47,926 bases of DNA, taken from positions 1 to 47,926 of the forward strand of contig CABZKA010000012.1 of assembly GCA_902526165.1 (NCBI GenBank), given 5' to 3'. Below are positions 14,840 through 20,571 of the stretch, one piece after another (positions within the stretch are counted from its first letter, which is position 1; every line of letters begins with the position of its first letter). Source of the DNA: an uncultured Bacteroidota bacterium (GTDB lineage Bacteria > Bacteroidota > Bacteroidia > Flavobacteriales > Flavobacteriaceae). A program made the translations under genes and the position numbers. The notes under the pieces are model-generated. The model saw nothing but the letters and a program-made list of their open reading frames with translations. It searched no databases and was not told where the DNA came from.

Positions 14840-15589
14840 ATGAAAAAACTATTTACACTTTTAGCATTAACTATCGGATTTAGTATGAATGCACAAATGA
14901 GCGACAATAGCAGTGGCACAACAGCAAGTGGAACTGCTGCTACAGCAATGGGATATCTAACAACAGCAAGTGGAACTGCTTCTACAGCAATGGGATATAG
15001 CACAACAGCAAGTGGAGATGTTTCTACATCAATGGGATATAGCACAACAGCAAGTGGAAATGAGTCTACAGCAATGGGAAGAAGCACAACAGCAAGTGAT
15101 TTTGGTTCTTTAGTAATCGGACAATACAATTCTTCAGGTTCTTCTGTTACAAATAACGCCACTTCATTTAATACAGCAAACACAGCTTTTGTGATTGGAA
15201 ATGGTACAAATTCCTCAAACAAATCGGATGCTTTTAAAGTAATGTTTAATGGAGATGCTACGGTTAGTAACGATTTAACAGTAAGTGGAGATGTAGTGAT
15301 TTCATCCGATGCAAGATTAAAGTCAAACATAGTATCTCTTGGTTCTACACTTCCTAAACTATTACAAATAGATGGTAAGTCCTATGAGATGAAAGGCAAA
15401 CAAAAAATAGGCGTACTTGCACAAGAGATAAAGGAAGTATTTCCTGAACTTGTAAGTAAAGATGACAATGAAATGTTAGCAGTAAACTATCAAGGATTAG
15501 TGCCTGTACTTATTAATGCATTGAAAGAGCAACAAAGCGAAATAGATGAACTAAAAGAGATGGTTCAATCATTAGTTTCAAAAGAATAA
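14840..15589 (+). CDS. Secreted YadA-head-repeat protein with S74 self-cleaving chaperone domain
   Basis: Signal peptide (MKKLFTLLALTIGFSMNAQ), then four 14-residue repeats (ASGTASTAMGYSTT type) like the trimeric YadA/Hep_Hag head. A spacer follows, and then from about residue 150 a C-terminal S74 domain: SSDARLKSNI, KQKIGVLAQEIKEVFPELV, NYQGLVPVLINALKEQ and a short terminal coiled coil. In endosialidase and phage tail fibres this domain trimerises the stalk and cuts itself off with a Ser-Lys dyad; the Ser and Lys are present here. A phage-type stalk on a secreted signal suggests a small trimeric surface fibre. Divergent from the propeller operon and next to tRNA-Arg. Its phage or host origin is unresolved. 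Confidence 0.85.
   Translation: MKKLFTLLALTIGFSMNAQMSDNSSGTTASGTAATAMGYLTTASGTASTAMGYSTTASGDVSTSMGYSTTASGNESTAMGRSTTASDFGSLVIGQYNSSGSSVTNNATSFNTANTAFVIGNGTNSSNKSDAFKVMFNGDATVSNDLTVSGDVVISSDARLKSNIVSLGSTLPKLLQIDGKSYEMKGKQKIGVLAQEIKEVFPELVSKDDNEMLAVNYQGLVPVLINALKEQQSEIDELKEMVQSLVSKE
14924..15091 (+). repeat. Four tandem 42-base repeats within the S74 protein gene
   Basis: Units begin at 14924, 14966, 15008 and 15050. Each encodes a 14-residue YadA-head repeat starting ASG and ending TT. A fifth, degenerate unit (ASDFGSLVIG) follows. Near-identical codons between units 1-4 (GCAAGTGGA, ATGGGATATAGCACAACA) suggest recent slippage or unequal crossing-over, so copy number probably varies between strains. 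Confidence 0.9.
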
Positions 15590-15716: not shown

Positions 15717-15721
15717 TCTTG

Positions 15722-15795
15722 TGACCTCGGCAGGATTCAAACCTGCAACCTTCTGAGCCGTAATCAGATGCACTATTCAGTTATGCTACGAGGCC
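15722..15795 (-). tRNA. tRNA-Arg (anticodon ACG)
   Basis: Complete cloverleaf of 74 bases. The acceptor is GGCCTCG/CGAGGTC with one G-U pair and discriminator A. The D stem is GCAT/GTGC, the anticodon stem TCTGA/TCAGA with loop TTACGGC, and the T stem GCAGG/CCTGC. CCA is not encoded. The A34 of ACG would be read as inosine after TadA editing, decoding CGN codons. Oddity: the D loop has A instead of G at position 19 and the T loop has T instead of C at 56, so the conserved G19-C56 tertiary pair is replaced by A19-U56. Confidence 0.93.
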
Positions 15796-15890
15796 TTATA
15801 TCTGTTAAATACTAAATAGTACAGTTGTTAAAAAAGCATTGTATACGACCTATTATGCGACATCCTTTGCTTTTGTACTATTTATATGCA

Positions 15891-15922
15891 AATTTATTAC
15901 ATTTATAACAATGAAAAAACTA
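15891..15922 (+). repeat. 32-base leader/start-codon repeat, copy 1
   Basis: Identical over 32 bases to 17535-17566. It spans the last 20 bases of the leader (ending ATTTATAACA) and the first codons ATGAAAAAACTA of the secreted-protein gene at 15911. Similarity fades upstream into related TTTATAT-rich sequence. The second copy drives a mini-cistron rather than a full gene, which implies a copied expression leader. Confidence 0.85.
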
Positions 15923-16249
15923 ACCTTATTATTGTTACTTGTTCCAATACTTTCTTTTGGGCAAGATCTCGAAGTTCAATGGTTTGCTAACGACCAAAGA
16001 GATGAGACTATTAAAACCGTTTTTATAACAGATGAGAATGGAACAGAAAAAGTCAAAGACTTTGAAGCAAAAAGCAGTATAGATCTAATTAAAAAGTTTG
16101 AAGCAAAGGGATATGAAGTTTATGAAATTAACACCGTTGTATTTCAACAAGCTTACGTGATAAAATATATTATTTGGTTTAGAGAAGTGAATGAAAACCC
16201 AACACAAAATATAATTGACGGAGTAAAAGAACTCATTAAGAAAAAATGA
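15911..16249 (+). CDS. Small secreted protein, unknown function
   Basis: The open frame extends upstream, but the ATG at 15911 starts a clean signal peptide (MKKLTLLLLLVPILSFGQ) and lies in the duplicated leader, so I use it. The mature part of about 94 residues is alpha/beta (VQWFANDQRDETIKTVFITDENG; SSIDLIKKFEAKGYEVYEIN; AYVIKYIIWFRE; IIDGVKELIKKK) with no known motif. Its TGA stop overlaps the ATG of the following mini-cistron (ATGA). It is the first gene of an array of tiny genes after the tRNA. Confidence 0.65.
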   Translation: MKKLTLLLLLVPILSFGQDLEVQWFANDQRDETIKTVFITDENGTEKVKDFEAKSSIDLIKKFEAKGYEVYEINTVVFQQAYVIKYIIWFREVNENPTQNIIDGVKELIKKK

Positions 16250-16269
16250 AAAAACTAATTCTACTATGA
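16246..16269 (+). CDS. Mini-cistron encoding MKKLILL, coupled on both sides
   Basis: Eight codons. The ATG overlaps the stop of the upstream gene (ATGA) and its own TGA overlaps the ATG of the next gene (ATGA at 16266). The peptide copies the start of a signal peptide but ends there. It may work as a translational re-initiation leader rather than as a peptide. One of four near-identical instances. Confidence 0.45.
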   Translation: MKKLILL

Positions 16270-16511
16270 ATATTGAAGTAAAAATTGGTATGTTAATTTT
16301 GTGGGTTCTTTATACTGTTGGTCTTACAGTTGGTGCAATTATAGGTATTAAGTATGGTCTATTTAGAAATCCATTTAAAGACAAGTGGGGAAGATGGAAA
16401 GATGATGTCTCAAGGAAAGAACAAATTATTTGGAATTTTTTTATTATTACTGGGGGTATACTATTAGCAAATATATTAGCTCCTTTCTTTTTCAATTTAT
16501 GGAAAAACTAA
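16266..16511 (+). CDS. Small two-segment membrane protein, unknown function
   Basis: 81 residues with two transmembrane segments (about 8-28, LILWVLYTVGLTVGAIIGI; about 56-76, FFIITGGILLANILAPFFF). A basic, Trp-containing loop (NPFKDKWGRWKDDVSRKEQ) lies between them. No recognised family. The ATG overlaps the stop of the preceding mini-cistron, so it is probably translated by re-initiation. Its own 3' end overlaps the next mini-cistron at 16499. Confidence 0.6.
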   Translation: MNIEVKIGMLILWVLYTVGLTVGAIIGIKYGLFRNPFKDKWGRWKDDVSRKEQIIWNFFIITGGILLANILAPFFFNLWKN

Positions 16512-16540
16512 TTCTACTATTAGTATTAATTTTATATTAA
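16499..16540 (+). CDS. Mini-cistron encoding MEKLILLLVLILY
   Basis: Fourteen codons in a frame overlapping the end of the upstream gene. It shares GAAAAACTAATTCTACTA with the other mini-cistrons. The hydrophobic 13-residue product could insert in the membrane, but a leader role is equally likely. It stops three bases before the ATG of the next membrane-protein gene. Confidence 0.4.
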   Translation: MEKLILLLVLILY

Positions 16541-16543
16541 ATT

Positions 16544-16762
16544 ATGGAAACCATTGATTACATTTTTATATTTTGCGTTATACTTGGCGTTTGTGCAATA
16601 TCGGTTACGATTATACATCCATTAATCCCGAATGAGGCGTTGTTTGAGAGTAAAGAAATTAATATTAAAAGAGGAAAAAAAATTGGTTCTATAATTGGTA
16701 TTATTATAGGAATTTTCATATGTTATTATTGTTGGGAAAATGGTTATTTTGATTTTTTATAA
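16544..16762 (+). CDS. Small two-segment membrane protein, unknown function
   Basis: 72 residues with transmembrane segments at about 5-25 (DYIFIFCVILGVCAISVTII) and 47-65 (IGSIIGIIIGIFICYYCW). A charged linker (SKEINIKRGKKIG) lies between them. No known family. It follows a MEKLILL mini-cistron by three bases and precedes another by ten, so it belongs to the repeated leader-gene arrangement. Confidence 0.55.
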   Translation: METIDYIFIFCVILGVCAISVTIIHPLIPNEALFESKEINIKRGKKIGSIIGIIIGIFICYYCWENGYFDFL

Positions 16763-16772
16763 AAAATACACT

Positions 16773-16802
16773 ATGAAAAAACTAATTCTACTATTACTAT
16801 GA
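16773..16802 (+). CDS. Mini-cistron encoding MKKLILLLL
   Basis: Ten codons. The first 21 bases are the same as in the mini-cistron at 16246, plus two extra Leu codons. Its TGA overlaps the ATG of the next tiny gene (ATGA at 16799). Confidence 0.4.
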   Translation: MKKLILLLL

Positions 16803-16900
16803 AAGAATCTAAAATATCTTTAGGTGCAGGGATAGGATTACTTGCAGGAATTATAATTGGAAGGTCTTTTATATGGGAACTTGGTCGTTATTATAAATAA
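16799..16900 (+). CDS. 33-residue single-span membrane peptide
   Basis: Product MKESKISLGAGIGLLAGIII continues GRSFIWELGRYYK: a short charged start, one Gly-rich transmembrane segment and an aromatic/basic tail. Overlaps the upstream mini-cistron stop by ATGA. No family recognised. Length and context make this tentative. Confidence 0.4.
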   Translation: MKESKISLGAGIGLLAGIIIGRSFIWELGRYYK

Positions 16901-16920
16901 TTAACCCTTCATTAACCATA

Positions 16921-16968
16921 ATGGCACTTGGATATTGGGTTGGAAATTATATTGGTAAAAATTTTTAA
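16921..16968 (+). CDS. Possible 15-residue peptide (MALGYWVGNYIGKNF)
   Basis: Lies 20 bases after the 33-residue gene and has a similar Gly/aromatic flavour. It could be the displaced tail of a frameshifted longer membrane protein. Very short, so only weakly supported. Confidence 0.2.
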   Translation: MALGYWVGNYIGKNF

Positions 16969-16976
16969 ACATCTTC

Positions 16977-17099
16977 TTACTCATCAATAATTTTTAAATA
17001 ACCCTTTTCACTTCCATTCACCAATACGAATTCGAGGAGCTTGTTAACCATCTTGCCTGGCCATATCTCAAAAACAAAAGATATTTTAGGTTGATATAA
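16977..17099 (-). pseudogene. Start-less C-terminal gene fragment
   Basis: A 40-codon frame without a usable start reads PKISFVFEIWPGKMVNKLLE followed by a tail ending GYLKIIDE and TAA. Its composition is protein-like and richer in GC than its surroundings. It overlaps the last codons of the minus-strand membrane gene in another frame. It probably represents the end of a lost gene; the family is not recognised. An internal ATG would give 24 residues. Confidence 0.3.
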
Positions 17100-17481
17100 T
17101 TAAGAGTTTTAATACCCAAAAAGAAGTCCTCACAACATTTAAACGTAATAATTTTTTATGAGCTCTGATACTAAAGGCAGAGTTTAAGCTGTTGTGAACT
17201 GGGACAATCAAAAAGAATGTAGTTAACCATATCAATGCAACAATAGTTGATGGAAACAGAAATGTGTTTTTTATAATTAAGTATAATGTAGATAATAATT
17301 CTATAATCATAATTGGCCCGACAATAAAAAACATTTTTTTTGTGTATGAACTATGAAAGGATCTGAAATTAGAATTATCATAATTTTTAAATGATGGATA
17401 AATGATAAGCTGAACCATTACAGAAATGGCAATTAAATATATATTTGAATAAATATTTATTTTCAAAAAAAGTTGTTCCAT
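17086..17481 (-). CDS. Four-span integral membrane protein, uncharacterised family
   Basis: 131 residues with four transmembrane segments (about 12-30, 48-68, 76-97 and 116-130). Characteristic positions are a Tyr-Pro after the first segment (QLIIYPSF), a Phe/His-rich loop (FRSFHSSYTKK), a Gly-Pro-Ile in the second segment (IVGPIMIIELL), a VPVHNSL motif and a terminal LNVVRTSFWVLKLL. I have seen this pattern in uncharacterised membrane proteins of marine bacteria, often near carotenoid or photolyase genes, but cannot assign a function. It is encoded against the direction of the surrounding small-gene array. Confidence 0.7.
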   Translation of the reverse strand: MEQLFLKINIYSNIYLIAISVMVQLIIYPSFKNYDNSNFRSFHSSYTKKMFFIVGPIMIIELLSTLYLIIKNTFLFPSTIVALIWLTTFFLIVPVHNSLNSAFSIRAHKKLLRLNVVRTSFWVLKLLIIST

Positions 17482-17534
17482 TTTTAGATTAAATTAAAAT
17501 GTAACAATAGATGTTTTATATCTTTATATATACG

Positions 17535-17566
17535 AATTTATTACATTTATAACAATGAAAAAACTA
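17535..17566 (+). repeat. 32-base leader/start-codon repeat, copy 2
   Basis: Identical to 15891-15922. Here the copied leader plus ATGAAAAAACTA continues into only three more codons before TGA, forming the mini-cistron in front of the 71-residue gene. Confidence 0.85.
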
Positions 17567-17578
17567 CTTTATAGATGA
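17555..17578 (+). CDS. Mini-cistron encoding MKKLLYR
   Basis: Eight codons directly after the duplicated leader. The TGA overlaps the ATG of the gene at 17575 (ATGA). Same design as the mini-cistrons at 16246 and 16773, although the sequence after MKKL differs. Confidence 0.4.
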   Translation: MKKLLYR

Positions 17579-17790
17579 ATATAATAATCTTTTTAATAGG
17601 TGTGATAATAACACTAATCTATTGCATGTCTTTTGTATGGGAAATCAAACAAGAGAAGGAGCGAAAGGAGAAGGAGTTATTTGATAACAAATACTACTAC
17701 ACAAGAAATCCATCAAATGAAAGAATGAAACAACCTAAACGAAAGAAAGGTTCCCAGAGTAGAATGAAAAATTATAATTGGAAAAAATGA
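17575..17790 (+). CDS. Small single-span membrane protein with basic tail
   Basis: 71 residues. One N-terminal transmembrane segment (IIIFLIGVIITLIYCMSFVW) is followed by a strongly charged cytoplasmic-type tail (EIKQEKERKEKE ... KQPKRKKGSQSRMKN). No family recognised. It starts in an ATGA overlap with a mini-cistron and ends in an ATGA overlap with the S9 peptidase start at 17787, so the three reading frames form a translationally coupled chain. Confidence 0.6.
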   Translation: MNIIIFLIGVIITLIYCMSFVWEIKQEKERKEKELFDNKYYYTRNPSNERMKQPKRKKGSQSRMKNYNWKK

Positions 17791-20555
17791 GGGGATTGGT
17801 CATACTCTTACTAATAATAACTTCAAACCTACACTCACAAAAAAAAATATTGGATCATCAAGATTTTGATATCTGGAATAGAATACAAAATTCCCGAATT
17901 TCCTCTAACGGTAATTATGTAATGTATTCAATTCAAAGAGGGGAGGAGGATAGTTTTTTAAAAATAAAAGATAAGAATGCTAATTTGATTTTTGAACATG
18001 ATCGTGGTGAGAGAGGTGTTTTTTCTTATGACTCCAAACATGCAGTTTTTATAATCAAGGAATGGAATGATTCAATTACTGAAATGAAAAGAAGAAAAGT
18101 AAAAAAGGACAAAATGCCAAAGGATACGCTTGGGATTTTCAACCTAAAGGATAAATCTTTGATTAAATTATCACACATCAAATCATATAAGAGTCCGGAA
18201 AAGTGGTCAGGTTTTATTGCTTACACTTATGATTTTATTAAAAAAAATAAAAAACAAAAAGATTCAACCAGAACAAAGGAAAAAAGTAAAAAACCAAGTA
18301 TAAAAAATGGATATCCACTTGTTATTAGAAACTTGAATACTAAGCTGGAGGATACTATTCAATTTGTGACAGATTACACATTTTCTAAAGAAAAAAAAAT
18401 AATTTCATACATAACCACTGGGGATGATAATTTTATTAAGCCTGGAATTTATATTAAAGACCTAAATAATAATTCAACAAAACATATTTTCGAATCACAT
18501 GTAAAAACAAAGTACTATAAACTTAATTTAAGTAATAGTGGAAAAAAAATAGCTTTCATTGTTGACACTGATTCCACAAAATCCTATAAGAGAAATAAAG
18601 AGTTGTATGCTTGGAATTCTAAAGATGATTTAAAATTAATTTTAGATCGAAAAGCCTCACCAAAAGGTTACCATGTTTCATCAGATGGTCAAATTAGTTT
18701 TTCAGATGATGAAACCAAATTATATTTTGGTTTAGCATTGCCTGAAATATATCAAGATACTTTACTTCTAAGAGAGGAAATTGTTGATGTTGAGGTTTGG
18801 ACTTATGATGAACCAAGACTGTATACAATTCAAGAGATGCAGTTAAATAATGACAAGAAAAAATCATTCAAATCTGTTTATAATTTTAATAATGAAAAAG
18901 TTATTCAAATATCAAATAAAGAGTTCCCAAATGCAGTAATATCTGAGCACGGAAATAGTGAATATGCATTGATAAGTAATCCTCAGCCATACCAATTAAG
19001 CTCTCAATGGACTGCACTTTTTTCAAAAAATGATTTAGCTGTAAAGAATATAAAAAATGGAGACTCTGAAGTTGTGATAAAAGGTAATCCAAGTTTGGCG
19101 AGATTAAGCCCACAAGGCTATTATGCGTATGGATATAATCAAGTTGATAGTACATGGTATACATACAACCTAAAAAAATCAAAATACACTGAGCTTACCA
19201 GAAGAAAAATATTTTATAATGAATTAAGTGATTATCCTAATTACCCAAGTTCTTATGGCATGGCAGGTTGGAGTAAAAATGACAAAACCATTTTTATTTA
19301 TGATCGTTATGATATTTGGGAGTTTGATCCGGATACTGGAAATAGTAAGCGTTTAACAAATGGTCGTGAATCAAAAACTTCTTACAGGCTAATTCGACTG
19401 GATAATGAAATTAAATTTATTGATACCTCGCAAAATTTATTAATGATTACATTCAATGAATTAACAAAAAACTCCGGTTATTATGAATTTGATTATAAAA
19501 AAAATATTGGTCAGCAACTTTTGGATGGTCCATACAGATATTCATCACCCAAAAAAGCTAGATTATCTGAAAATATTATTTTTACGCGACAATCATTTGT
19601 AGAATATCCTGATATTAGATTATCTAACCTAAATTTCAAATCTGATAAAATAATTAGTAATGCCAATCCACAGCAAGTTAATTATAATTGGGGCACATCA
19701 GAGTTGGTTAATTGGTCATCTTTGGATGGTATGAAATTGAGTGGAATGTTGATAAAGCCTGAAAATTTTGATCCATCAAAACAATATCCAATGATTGTAA
19801 ACTTTTATGAAAAAAGTTCTAATGGTCTGCATACCCATAGGGCACCAAGTCCAGGTAGATCTTCTATCAATTATAGTTTTTATACAAGTAGGGGTTATTT
19901 AATTTTTAATCCTGATGTACACTATAAGGTTGGATATCCAGGTGAAAGTGCTTTTAATTGTGTTATTCCTGGAATAACGTCTTTGATTGAAAAAGGATTT
20001 GTCGATAAGGATAATATCGGTGTACAGGGTCACAGTTGGGGAGGTTATCAAATAGCATATTTAGTTACAAAAACTGATATTTTTAAAGCAGCAGAGTCAG
20101 GAGCTCCAGTTGTAAATATGATTAGTGCATATGGTGGTGTTAGATGGGATACCGGACTCAGTAGACAATTTCAATATGAGCATACACAAAGTAGAATTGG
20201 AGGAACACCTTGGGAGTATCCTCAGAGATACTTTGAAAATTCACCAATATATAATATTGATAAAATAAACACCCCCCTTCTAATAATGCACAACGATAAA
20301 GATGGCCATGTTCCTTGGTATCAAGGTATTGAGTTTTTTATGAGCTTAAGACGTTTATCCAAACCTTCTTGGTTGTTAAATTATAATGACGCAAGACACT
20401 GGCCACTAAAAATGAAAAACAGAAAGGATTTTAACATTAGAATGCAACAGTTCTTTGACCATTATTTGAAAGGGGCAAATATGCCTGTTTGGATGCAGAA
20501 AGGAGTTCCCGCAATTGAAAAAGGGATTAATCAGGGTTATGATTTGGTCAAATAA
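17787..20555 (+). CDS. Secreted prolyl-oligopeptidase family (S9) serine peptidase
   Basis: Cleaves peptides in the periplasm or outside. The ATG at 17787 overlaps the upstream stop and begins a signal peptide (MRGLVILLLIITSNLHSQ); a TTG three codons earlier is less likely. The N-terminal 600 residues are an irregular beta-propeller with PD40-like strands. The C-terminal alpha/beta hydrolase shows GHSWGG with nucleophile Ser750, Asp839 in NDKDGHVP and His871 in ARHWP. Length of 922 is typical for the large Bacteroidetes S9 group. The propeller contains a Lys-rich, low-complexity insert near residues 155-175. Transcription probably enters from the small-gene array. It converges on cruF with a 16-base gap and no visible terminator. 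Confidence 0.92.
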   Translation: MRGLVILLLIITSNLHSQKKILDHQDFDIWNRIQNSRISSNGNYVMYSIQRGEEDSFLKIKDKNANLIFEHDRGERGVFSYDSKHAVFIIKEWNDSITEMKRRKVKKDKMPKDTLGIFNLKDKSLIKLSHIKSYKSPEKWSGFIAYTYDFIKKNKKQKDSTRTKEKSKKPSIKNGYPLVIRNLNTKLEDTIQFVTDYTFSKEKKIISYITTGDDNFIKPGIYIKDLNNNSTKHIFESHVKTKYYKLNLSNSGKKIAFIVDTDSTKSYKRNKELYAWNSKDDLKLILDRKASPKGYHVSSDGQISFSDDETKLYFGLALPEIYQDTLLLREEIVDVEVWTYDEPRLYTIQEMQLNNDKKKSFKSVYNFNNEKVIQISNKEFPNAVISEHGNSEYALISNPQPYQLSSQWTALFSKNDLAVKNIKNGDSEVVIKGNPSLARLSPQGYYAYGYNQVDSTWYTYNLKKSKYTELTRRKIFYNELSDYPNYPSSYGMAGWSKNDKTIFIYDRYDIWEFDPDTGNSKRLTNGRESKTSYRLIRLDNEIKFIDTSQNLLMITFNELTKNSGYYEFDYKKNIGQQLLDGPYRYSSPKKARLSENIIFTRQSFVEYPDIRLSNLNFKSDKIISNANPQQVNYNWGTSELVNWSSLDGMKLSGMLIKPENFDPSKQYPMIVNFYEKSSNGLHTHRAPSPGRSSINYSFYTSRGYLIFNPDVHYKVGYPGESAFNCVIPGITSLIEKGFVDKDNIGVQGHSWGGYQIAYLVTKTDIFKAAESGAPVVNMISAYGGVRWDTGLSRQFQYEHTQSRIGGTPWEYPQRYFENSPIYNIDKINTPLLIMHNDKDGHVPWYQGIEFFMSLRRLSKPSWLLNYNDARHWPLKMKNRKDFNIRMQQFFDHYLKGANMPVWMQKGVPAIEKGINQGYDLVK

Positions 20556-20571
20556 TAACTTTCTAAAATTA

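Follow-up and report, generated by a model that had tools for sequence, protein, structure and literature searches.

Stubs of a dispersed signal-peptide module precede small membrane-protein genes in a variable flavobacterial island beside tRNA-Arg and may act as bicistronic leaders

We analysed a 47,926-nucleotide (nt) stretch of DNA from an uncultured Flavobacteriaceae bacterium (GenBank CABZKA010000012.1), referred to here as the window, which is contig C12 of a source assembly of 1.2 megabases in 33 contigs that is 73% complete. Four very short open frames of 7 to 13 codons, mini-cistrons 1 to 4, begin in the window like an MKKL-type signal peptide, and each lies just ahead of a gene for a different small membrane protein (Table 1). 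The repeated DNA was found to be the 5' end of a signal-peptide module (peptide MKKLILLLLFIPLVSFGQ, beginning with ATGAAAAAACTAATTCTACTATTACTATTTATTCC) that is dispersed over many genes. We read the mini-cistrons as recombination stubs of this module that are probably also bicistronic leaders, with a probability of about 0.5 for the reading as a whole; its coupling part is argued from sequence features.

Four mini-cistrons at the locus

The four frames listed in the initial annotation were all recovered where it placed them, together with three exact ATGA overlaps and a fourth frame (mini-cistron 2) that stops 3 nt short. The downstream proteins of 81, 72, 33 and 71 amino acids (aa), which it had called small membrane proteins, all contain a hydrophobic segment. 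It had also described a chain ending in an overlap with an S9 peptidase gene. The ATGA at 17787 is present, but the chain is broken: the 33-aa gene and mini-cistron 4 lie about 650 nt apart, and a gene for a 131-aa protein is encoded between them on the reverse strand.

The pattern ATGRAAAAACTA occurs 7 times in the window (0.09 expected), and the first 20 nt of mini-cistron 1 were matched 4 times with up to 3 mismatches (0.03 expected). Mini-cistron 4 has only ATGAAAAAACTA in common with the other three. The core of the promoter-plus-start repeat in which it begins was found, with up to 3 mismatches, in 7 of 23 genomes of the genus. As a baseline, the window and nine 20-kilobase (kb) stretches of relatives were scanned (228 kb); an ATG mini-frame of 4-20 codons ended at -4 before 6 of 183 genes of at least 100 aa, and one beginning M[KE]K before 1 of 183. 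RNA folding gave z-scores of -0.66 to -1.24 for mini-cistrons 2-4 and -3.08 around mini-cistron 1, where the stretch is also within coding sequence.

Table 1. Features of the mini-cistron region (positions in the window)
Feature	Position	Strand	Remarks
tRNA-Arg (ACG)	15721..15795	-	ARAGORN and Rfam; similarity to relatives stops just past the tRNA; left anchor of the island
Variable island	15796..20564	.	From tRNA-Arg to the right flank, which is conserved from 20565
Direct repeat, copy 1	15878..15922	+	45 nt; promoter-like sequence plus ATGAAAAAACTA; 91% identical to copy 2
112-aa protein	15911..16249	+	Module-type signal peptide; stop in ATGA overlap with start of mini-cistron 1
Mini-cistron 1 (MKKLILL, stop)	16246..16269	+	First 20 nt equal those of the signal-peptide module
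81-aa membrane protein	16266..16511	+	ATGA overlap with mini-cistron 1; homolog in G004 (L119)
Mini-cistron 2 (MEKLILLLVLILY, stop)	16499..16540	+	Start lies in the 3' end of the 81-aa gene; the repeat contains the stop of that gene
72-aa membrane protein	16544..16762	+	Starts 3 nt past the end of mini-cistron 2
Mini-cistron 3 (MKKLILLLL, stop)	16773..16802	+	Identical to the module through nt 28
33-aa product	16799..16900	+	ATGA overlap with mini-cistron 3
131-aa protein	17086..17481	-	Between the 33-aa gene and mini-cistron 4; homolog in G019
Direct repeat, copy 2	17522..17566	+	Promoter-like sequence plus start of mini-cistron 4
Mini-cistron 4 (MKKLLYR, stop)	17555..17578	+	7 codons; ATGA overlap with the 71-aa gene
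71-aa membrane protein	17575..17790	+	ATGA overlap with S9 start (17787); Pfam match sub-threshold only
S9 peptidase, 922 aa	17787..20555	+	PF00326, 2e-27

A signal-peptide module common to unrelated genes

The 20-mer ATGAAAAAACTAATTCTACT from the start of the module, allowing up to 2 mismatches, was present in 21 of the 23 genus genomes; outside the genus, two genomes of a second genus carried 20 and 16 copies and one genome of a third genus carried 2. A longer module pattern without mismatches was matched in 3 of 299 sampled genomes of the family, and in neither of the two genus genomes of that sample (the window's own included). Among 84 module copies in the fetched regions of the genus, 62 open a frame of at least 30 codons, many of them encoding a signal peptide near MKKLILLLLFIPLVSFGQ. 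The 28 module-headed genes of at least 60 codons, two of which come from the second genus, fall into 25 unrelated body groups (blastp, 1e-3).

Codons 8-18 were compared among one representative per body group, three related genes being dropped. The same codon was used in 76% of 1972 same-residue comparisons, while 1000 resamplings from codon usage gave a mean of 42% and a maximum of 50%. A slight bias remains, because the first 20 nt had served to select most of the regions and longer BLAST matches some of them. Codon sharing so far above codon usage indicates shared DNA and not convergence of protein sequence. The equation of the repeat with the start of a signal peptide, made in the initial annotation, extends to the DNA of genes with 25 unrelated bodies.

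Mini-cistrons 1-3 are stubs of the module, and the junction of mini-cistron 3 shows how one is joined. The module match runs through nt 28, the downstream sequence matches the context of the homologous gene in G019, and TTACTAT (7 nt) is common to both. When a module sequence ...CTA TTA CTA T... is joined at TAT to a gene start TATGA, the result is an in-frame TGA that overlaps the ATG. With the 25 unrelated bodies, this 7-nt homology makes recombination at signal-peptide starts, which the annotation had offered as its second idea, the better shown of the two.

An identical mini-cistron 3 was found in G020 (L095). The 33-aa product behind it agrees with a 50-aa glycine-rich membrane protein of relatives over the first 21 residues only; the gene appears to have kept its 5' part, the 3' part being replaced or degraded, and G019 carries another 3' part. 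The only close homolog of the 81-aa gene, in G004, has a GTGA overlap with an 11-codon stub of its own, and this one pair hints that coupling was kept while the place of the overlap moved. No match to the 72-aa protein was obtained by tblastn at E 0.01 over 42 compared loci.

Similar arrangements occur beyond the window. A stub MKKLTLIL ends at -4 of a 57-aa membrane protein gene in G008, and in the second genus (G026) genes for membrane proteins of 40 and 66 aa follow the stubs MKKLLLLL (ending at -4) and MKKLILLLLFPLIKL (ending at +1), respectively. Of eight places examined as in-frame ATGA candidates, two are plausible, one in G008 and one, whose start is uncertain, in G014; the remaining six lie inside longer open frames. 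On the reverse strand of G002:C28 (L104, 117-587), three leader stubs were seen within 500 nt beside tRNA-Arg, the middle one overlapping the start of a 66-aa membrane protein gene by 20 nt.

Conservation of mini-cistron 4 and the variable island beside tRNA-Arg

The 71-aa gene was found at 14 loci, excluding a weak match in G019 (40% over 35 residues). At 9 of these, in several neighbourhoods, it is preceded by a stub of exactly 7 codons that ends in the ATGA of the gene, without indels and, in every case, with an in-frame stop immediately ahead of the 71-aa start. Among the nine loci, divergence is 0-25% over the 20 nt of the stub and 9-36% at the third positions of the gene; stub divergence was the lower value in 34 of 36 pairs. 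The stub varies in codons 3 to 7, whereas its first two codons, ATG included, are invariant. The 40 nt upstream of the stub, by ungapped comparison, differ at 45-72% when the tRNA-Arg group (window, G012, G005, G009) is set against the other loci; an upstream region common to G001 and G017 is visible, with an offset. The stub frame has a further ATG upstream in G009 and G017. Elsewhere the place of the stub is taken by a 58-aa gene ending at -4 (G021) or a 175-aa gene ending directly before the 71-aa gene, at 0 (G007), and no stub was found before the gene in G015, which has a TTG start, or in L145.

According to the partial text of PMC6847099, Bacteroidetes genes have fewer AUG triplets than expected shortly ahead of their starts, which makes the AUG kept at -20 before the 71-aa gene notable. 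On these comparisons, only mini-cistron 4 among the four has signs of selection. The bicistronic leader proposed in the initial annotation, formed by a copied start module, is supported by conservation for mini-cistron 4, with a hint for the 81-aa gene, and finds little in mini-cistrons 1-3, which are scarcely conserved. Programmed -1 frameshifting that would fuse mini-cistron 4 to the 71-aa protein was rejected, as no slippery sequence common to the nine loci was seen by eye.

The 71-aa protein is conserved and, among the genomes searched, occurs almost only in the genus; its profile matched 4 of the 299 sampled genomes, namely the window's own, one of the genus and two weakly. The records of its loci are titled Cryomorphaceae, Flavobacteriales, Flavobacteriaceae or Bacteroidetes and are mostly uncultured isolates and metagenome assemblies; from the naming style, we take the hosts to be bacteria of the ocean surface. 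In a search for a viral relative, 59 viral contig stretches matched a pattern, and none was confirmed to encode a relative of the 71-aa protein. At several loci the 3' end of the 71-aa gene bears a similar joint, AAAAAATGAAAAAAC, followed by differing genes. In G009:C19 (L125, about position 317), most of the S9 gene has apparently been deleted between two ATGAAAAA-type sequences, so that the 3' joint of the 71-aa gene is fused to the S9-internal ATGAAAAATAG and a 47-codon remnant lies behind the gene. Just before the start of mini-cistron 4, TACATTTA resembles the flavobacterial -7 element, TAnnTTTG; as a guess, such an element would place the transcript start very near the ATG of mini-cistron 4.

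The mini-cistrons lie in a variable island beside tRNA-Arg. G008 and G020 have the same tRNA-Arg, left-side genes and right flank as the window, with different genes in between. At the far end of the island, G020 (L173, C6) and G016 (L091, C9) carry a 41-nt half copy of the tRNA that is identical to the corresponding half in the window and is preceded in both by nearly the same arm sequence; the G020 half copy differs at 2 sites from the complete tRNA-Arg of that genome. The presumed att-arm pattern was found in 2 of 23 genus genomes. No second copy of the tRNA was found in the window, G012, G005 or G008, and the contigs of G002 and G009 are cut. No recombinase was matched by Pfam in seven open reading frames located between 15.9 and 20.6 kb of the window or in the left neighbour of this stretch. 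Enrichment of tRNAs near leader regions, which were chosen by leader or homology matches, is modest (20 in 259 kb; 6 in 139 kb of further regions and 8 in 180 kb of controls).

Two observations concern tRNA neighbourhoods. An island of about 10 kb in G016:C7 (L090, 2795-12840) lies between a complete tRNA-Asn and a partial copy. It encodes a tyrosine recombinase (PF00589, 4.9e-9), and six of its genes, each longer than 100 codons, are of the leader type (leader with up to 4 mismatches). In the window, 14840-15589, beside tRNA-Arg, encodes a 249-aa protein with YadA-head repeats and a Peptidase_S74 chaperone domain.

Proposed mechanism, alternatives and known systems

In the mechanism that we propose, the first codons of the module (7-13 here) would be attached out of frame to genes for small membrane proteins within the variable island. 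Joining would take place at short homology near the captured start, where CTA or TTA meets the TGA of the captured gene; the captured gene then supplies the stop of the stub, and the overlap can arise by construction. Ribosomes would probably load at the A-rich ATGAAAAAACT, and a ribosome ending at ATGA would sit on the next start and could reinitiate on the membrane-protein gene. The stub would thereby act as a bicistronic leader, and selection appears to have retained the one before the 71-aa gene. That the stubs are translated, that ribosomes reinitiate and that there is any benefit is inferred here from sequence. In Bacteroidetes, neither initiation nor reinitiation seems to make use of Shine-Dalgarno sequences (available part of PMC6728339), and A at -3 is a favoured start context in Flavobacterium johnsoniae (PMC6847099, in part). 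An A at -3 was found at 3 of the 4 downstream starts and 3 of the 4 mini-cistron starts.

The strongest alternative sees in the mini-cistrons nothing but scars that gene shuffling left behind: former signal-peptide starts without a role, whose overlaps follow from where the joins fell. We put this appreciably short of an even chance. In simulated joins, a -4 overlap arose in 28, 19 and 13% of stubs when the gene brought along 0, up to 10 and up to 30 nt of its native upstream sequence; joins made at 4-nt homologies gave it in 24%. The compared loci were recounted with a leader of up to 3 mismatches, giving 29 stubs of fewer than 30 codons and 98 longer frames. Downstream genes were required to have an ATG start and 28 codons, homologous cases were counted once, and two stubs inside open frames of 387-390 codons were dropped; the GTGA stub of G004 was missed, as was the one that in G002 precedes a 71-aa gene that is cut off. 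Counting by leader alone, 3 of 11 stub-led genes were at -4 (p 0.16 to 0.63 versus random joins), one of the 11 (G005, offset -28) having a poor leader match; other offsets included -20, +2, +19 and +39. With two families added that were found by ATGA pattern or homology, 5 of 13 were at -4 (p 0.02 to 0.29). An excess of overlaps (5 of 8 families, compared with 6 of 183 genes and with the join simulation) had been considered as evidence and was rejected: the list was hand-made, the denominators of the first comparison are unlike, and the recount matches the null. The -4 overlap thus occurs as often as random joining gives it, needs no selection and proves nothing, and with its withdrawal as evidence our confidence in the leader reading was lowered.

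Several further points weigh against a leader function. Many module stubs have no gene within 40 nt. Among the 11 stub-led genes, those of 81, 72, 33 or 50, 40, 66 and 66 aa encode small membrane proteins and the others do not. The frame of mini-cistron 3 is lost in G015 (L098). L145, which has upstream sequence similar to that of L143, is without exactly the 20 nt of mini-cistron 4, and in L143 these are flanked by TAAATGA-like repeats. In G002 a 10-codon stub ends 11 nt before the 71-aa gene with no overlap, and stub divergence exceeded that of third positions in 2 of the 36 pairs. The stop of mini-cistron 4 is fixed by the ATGA of the 71-aa gene itself, and its other bases could be retained as DNA or re-supplied by recombination. 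Downstream starts with A at -3 do not look poor, which counts against the proposal in the initial annotation that the mini-cistrons feed otherwise poorly initiated genes. What the scar account leaves aside is the constancy of mini-cistron 4 (7 codons and ATGA at 9 of 14 loci, with divergence below third positions in nearly all pairs) and the 81-aa gene, which is overlapped in both known lineages at different places.

It is quite unlikely that the 20-nt block before the 71-aa gene has been kept simply as DNA, as a recombination joint or promoter-proximal site with an incidental frame. Homology between differing neighbourhoods does start at ATGAAAAAACT, the 3' joint of the gene stands before different genes at several loci, and the apparent G009 deletion joins a AAAAAATGAAAAAAC-type joint to sequence internal to S9. 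A pure DNA joint needs no frame, though, and the nine loci have neither an indel nor an in-frame stop in the stub, with changes in codons 3 to 7 beside an unchanged ATG and codon 2.

Sequencing or assembly frameshifts, by which the mini-frames would be the real N-termini of the downstream proteins, are barely credible: the repeated DNA is indeed a signal-peptide start, and the 33-aa homolog in G019 (L103) has an in-frame upstream ATG, but without the module, whereas none of the homologous loci examined has a module stub in frame with its downstream gene (the arrangement that the annotation had named as its refutation), assemblies of different origin agree, and for mini-cistron 4 the stop before the 71-aa start at all nine stub loci refutes it. 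An attenuator was likewise rejected, structure being unconvincing for mini-cistrons 2-4 and the stub-to-gene distances of -4 to +3 nt being wrong for an attenuation leader peptide, whose stop lies at least 40 bp from the gene in the text available of PMC4833913.

The reading of the stubs as recombination products and probable leaders has partial precedents, and the earlier statement that no system of this form had been described was too strong. In the available portion of PMC8876359, the attI1 ORF-11 leader of class 1 integrons receives its stop from the captured gene, where terminating ribosomes restart. Like the ORF-11 / ORF-18 leader of attI1, the stubs are short frames at a recombination point ahead of a captured gene, and mini-cistrons 1, 3 and 4, unlike mini-cistron 2, end in the TGA of the next gene's ATGA. 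They differ in being many dispersed signal-peptide stubs instead of one fixed attI leader, in having no Shine-Dalgarno sequence, and in that their coupling is deduced from sequence. No integron integrase or attC site was noticed in this locus, without a search aimed at them.

Leader genes, short upstream frames proposed to raise translation by reinitiation, also lie close to a gene start, with a distance peak at 11-14 bp in Bacteroidetes (PMC4833913, in the part available). They do not overlap the structural gene according to that text, whereas three of the four stubs here do so by 4 nt, and the stubs descend from one DNA ancestor. The three ATGA overlaps and one 3-nt gap resemble gene pairs that overlap at ATGA and are coupled by termination-reinitiation (PMC6728339, partial text), the upstream partner here being a stub of 7-13 codons. 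The island resembles the tycheposons and tRNA-linked islands of aquatic bacteria as the accessible part of PMC10872708 presents them: it has a tRNA border and variable cargo, with partial tRNA copies in relatives and a tyrosine recombinase in one relative. Unlike tycheposons, the window has no second tRNA copy, and no recombinase was noticed in its island.

Term searches returned no literature on the shuffling of signal peptides among unrelated Bacteroidetes proteins, a text search found no mention of MKKLILLLLF, and a search for identical signal peptides with recombination in bacteria returned only papers that seem unrelated, judged by their listing.

A further idea, which we regard as rather doubtful, is that ATGAAAAAACT is a universal joint of these small genomes, serving at once as the stop of one gene, the start of the next and a short recombination homology. 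If so, cassettes of small genes could be exchanged there without losing translational coupling to whichever genes lie next to them, and a stub would be a ready-made ribosome loader where a signal peptide has to be kept off the captured protein. L143 and L145 form a natural pair: their upstream regions are related, and only that of L143 contains the 20-nt mini-cistron. The module is a bacterial 5' gene module, comprising a start codon and a signal peptide, that is common at the DNA level to many unrelated genes, and its stubs suggest a possible route to translation for recently captured genes in bacteria that make little use of Shine-Dalgarno sequences.

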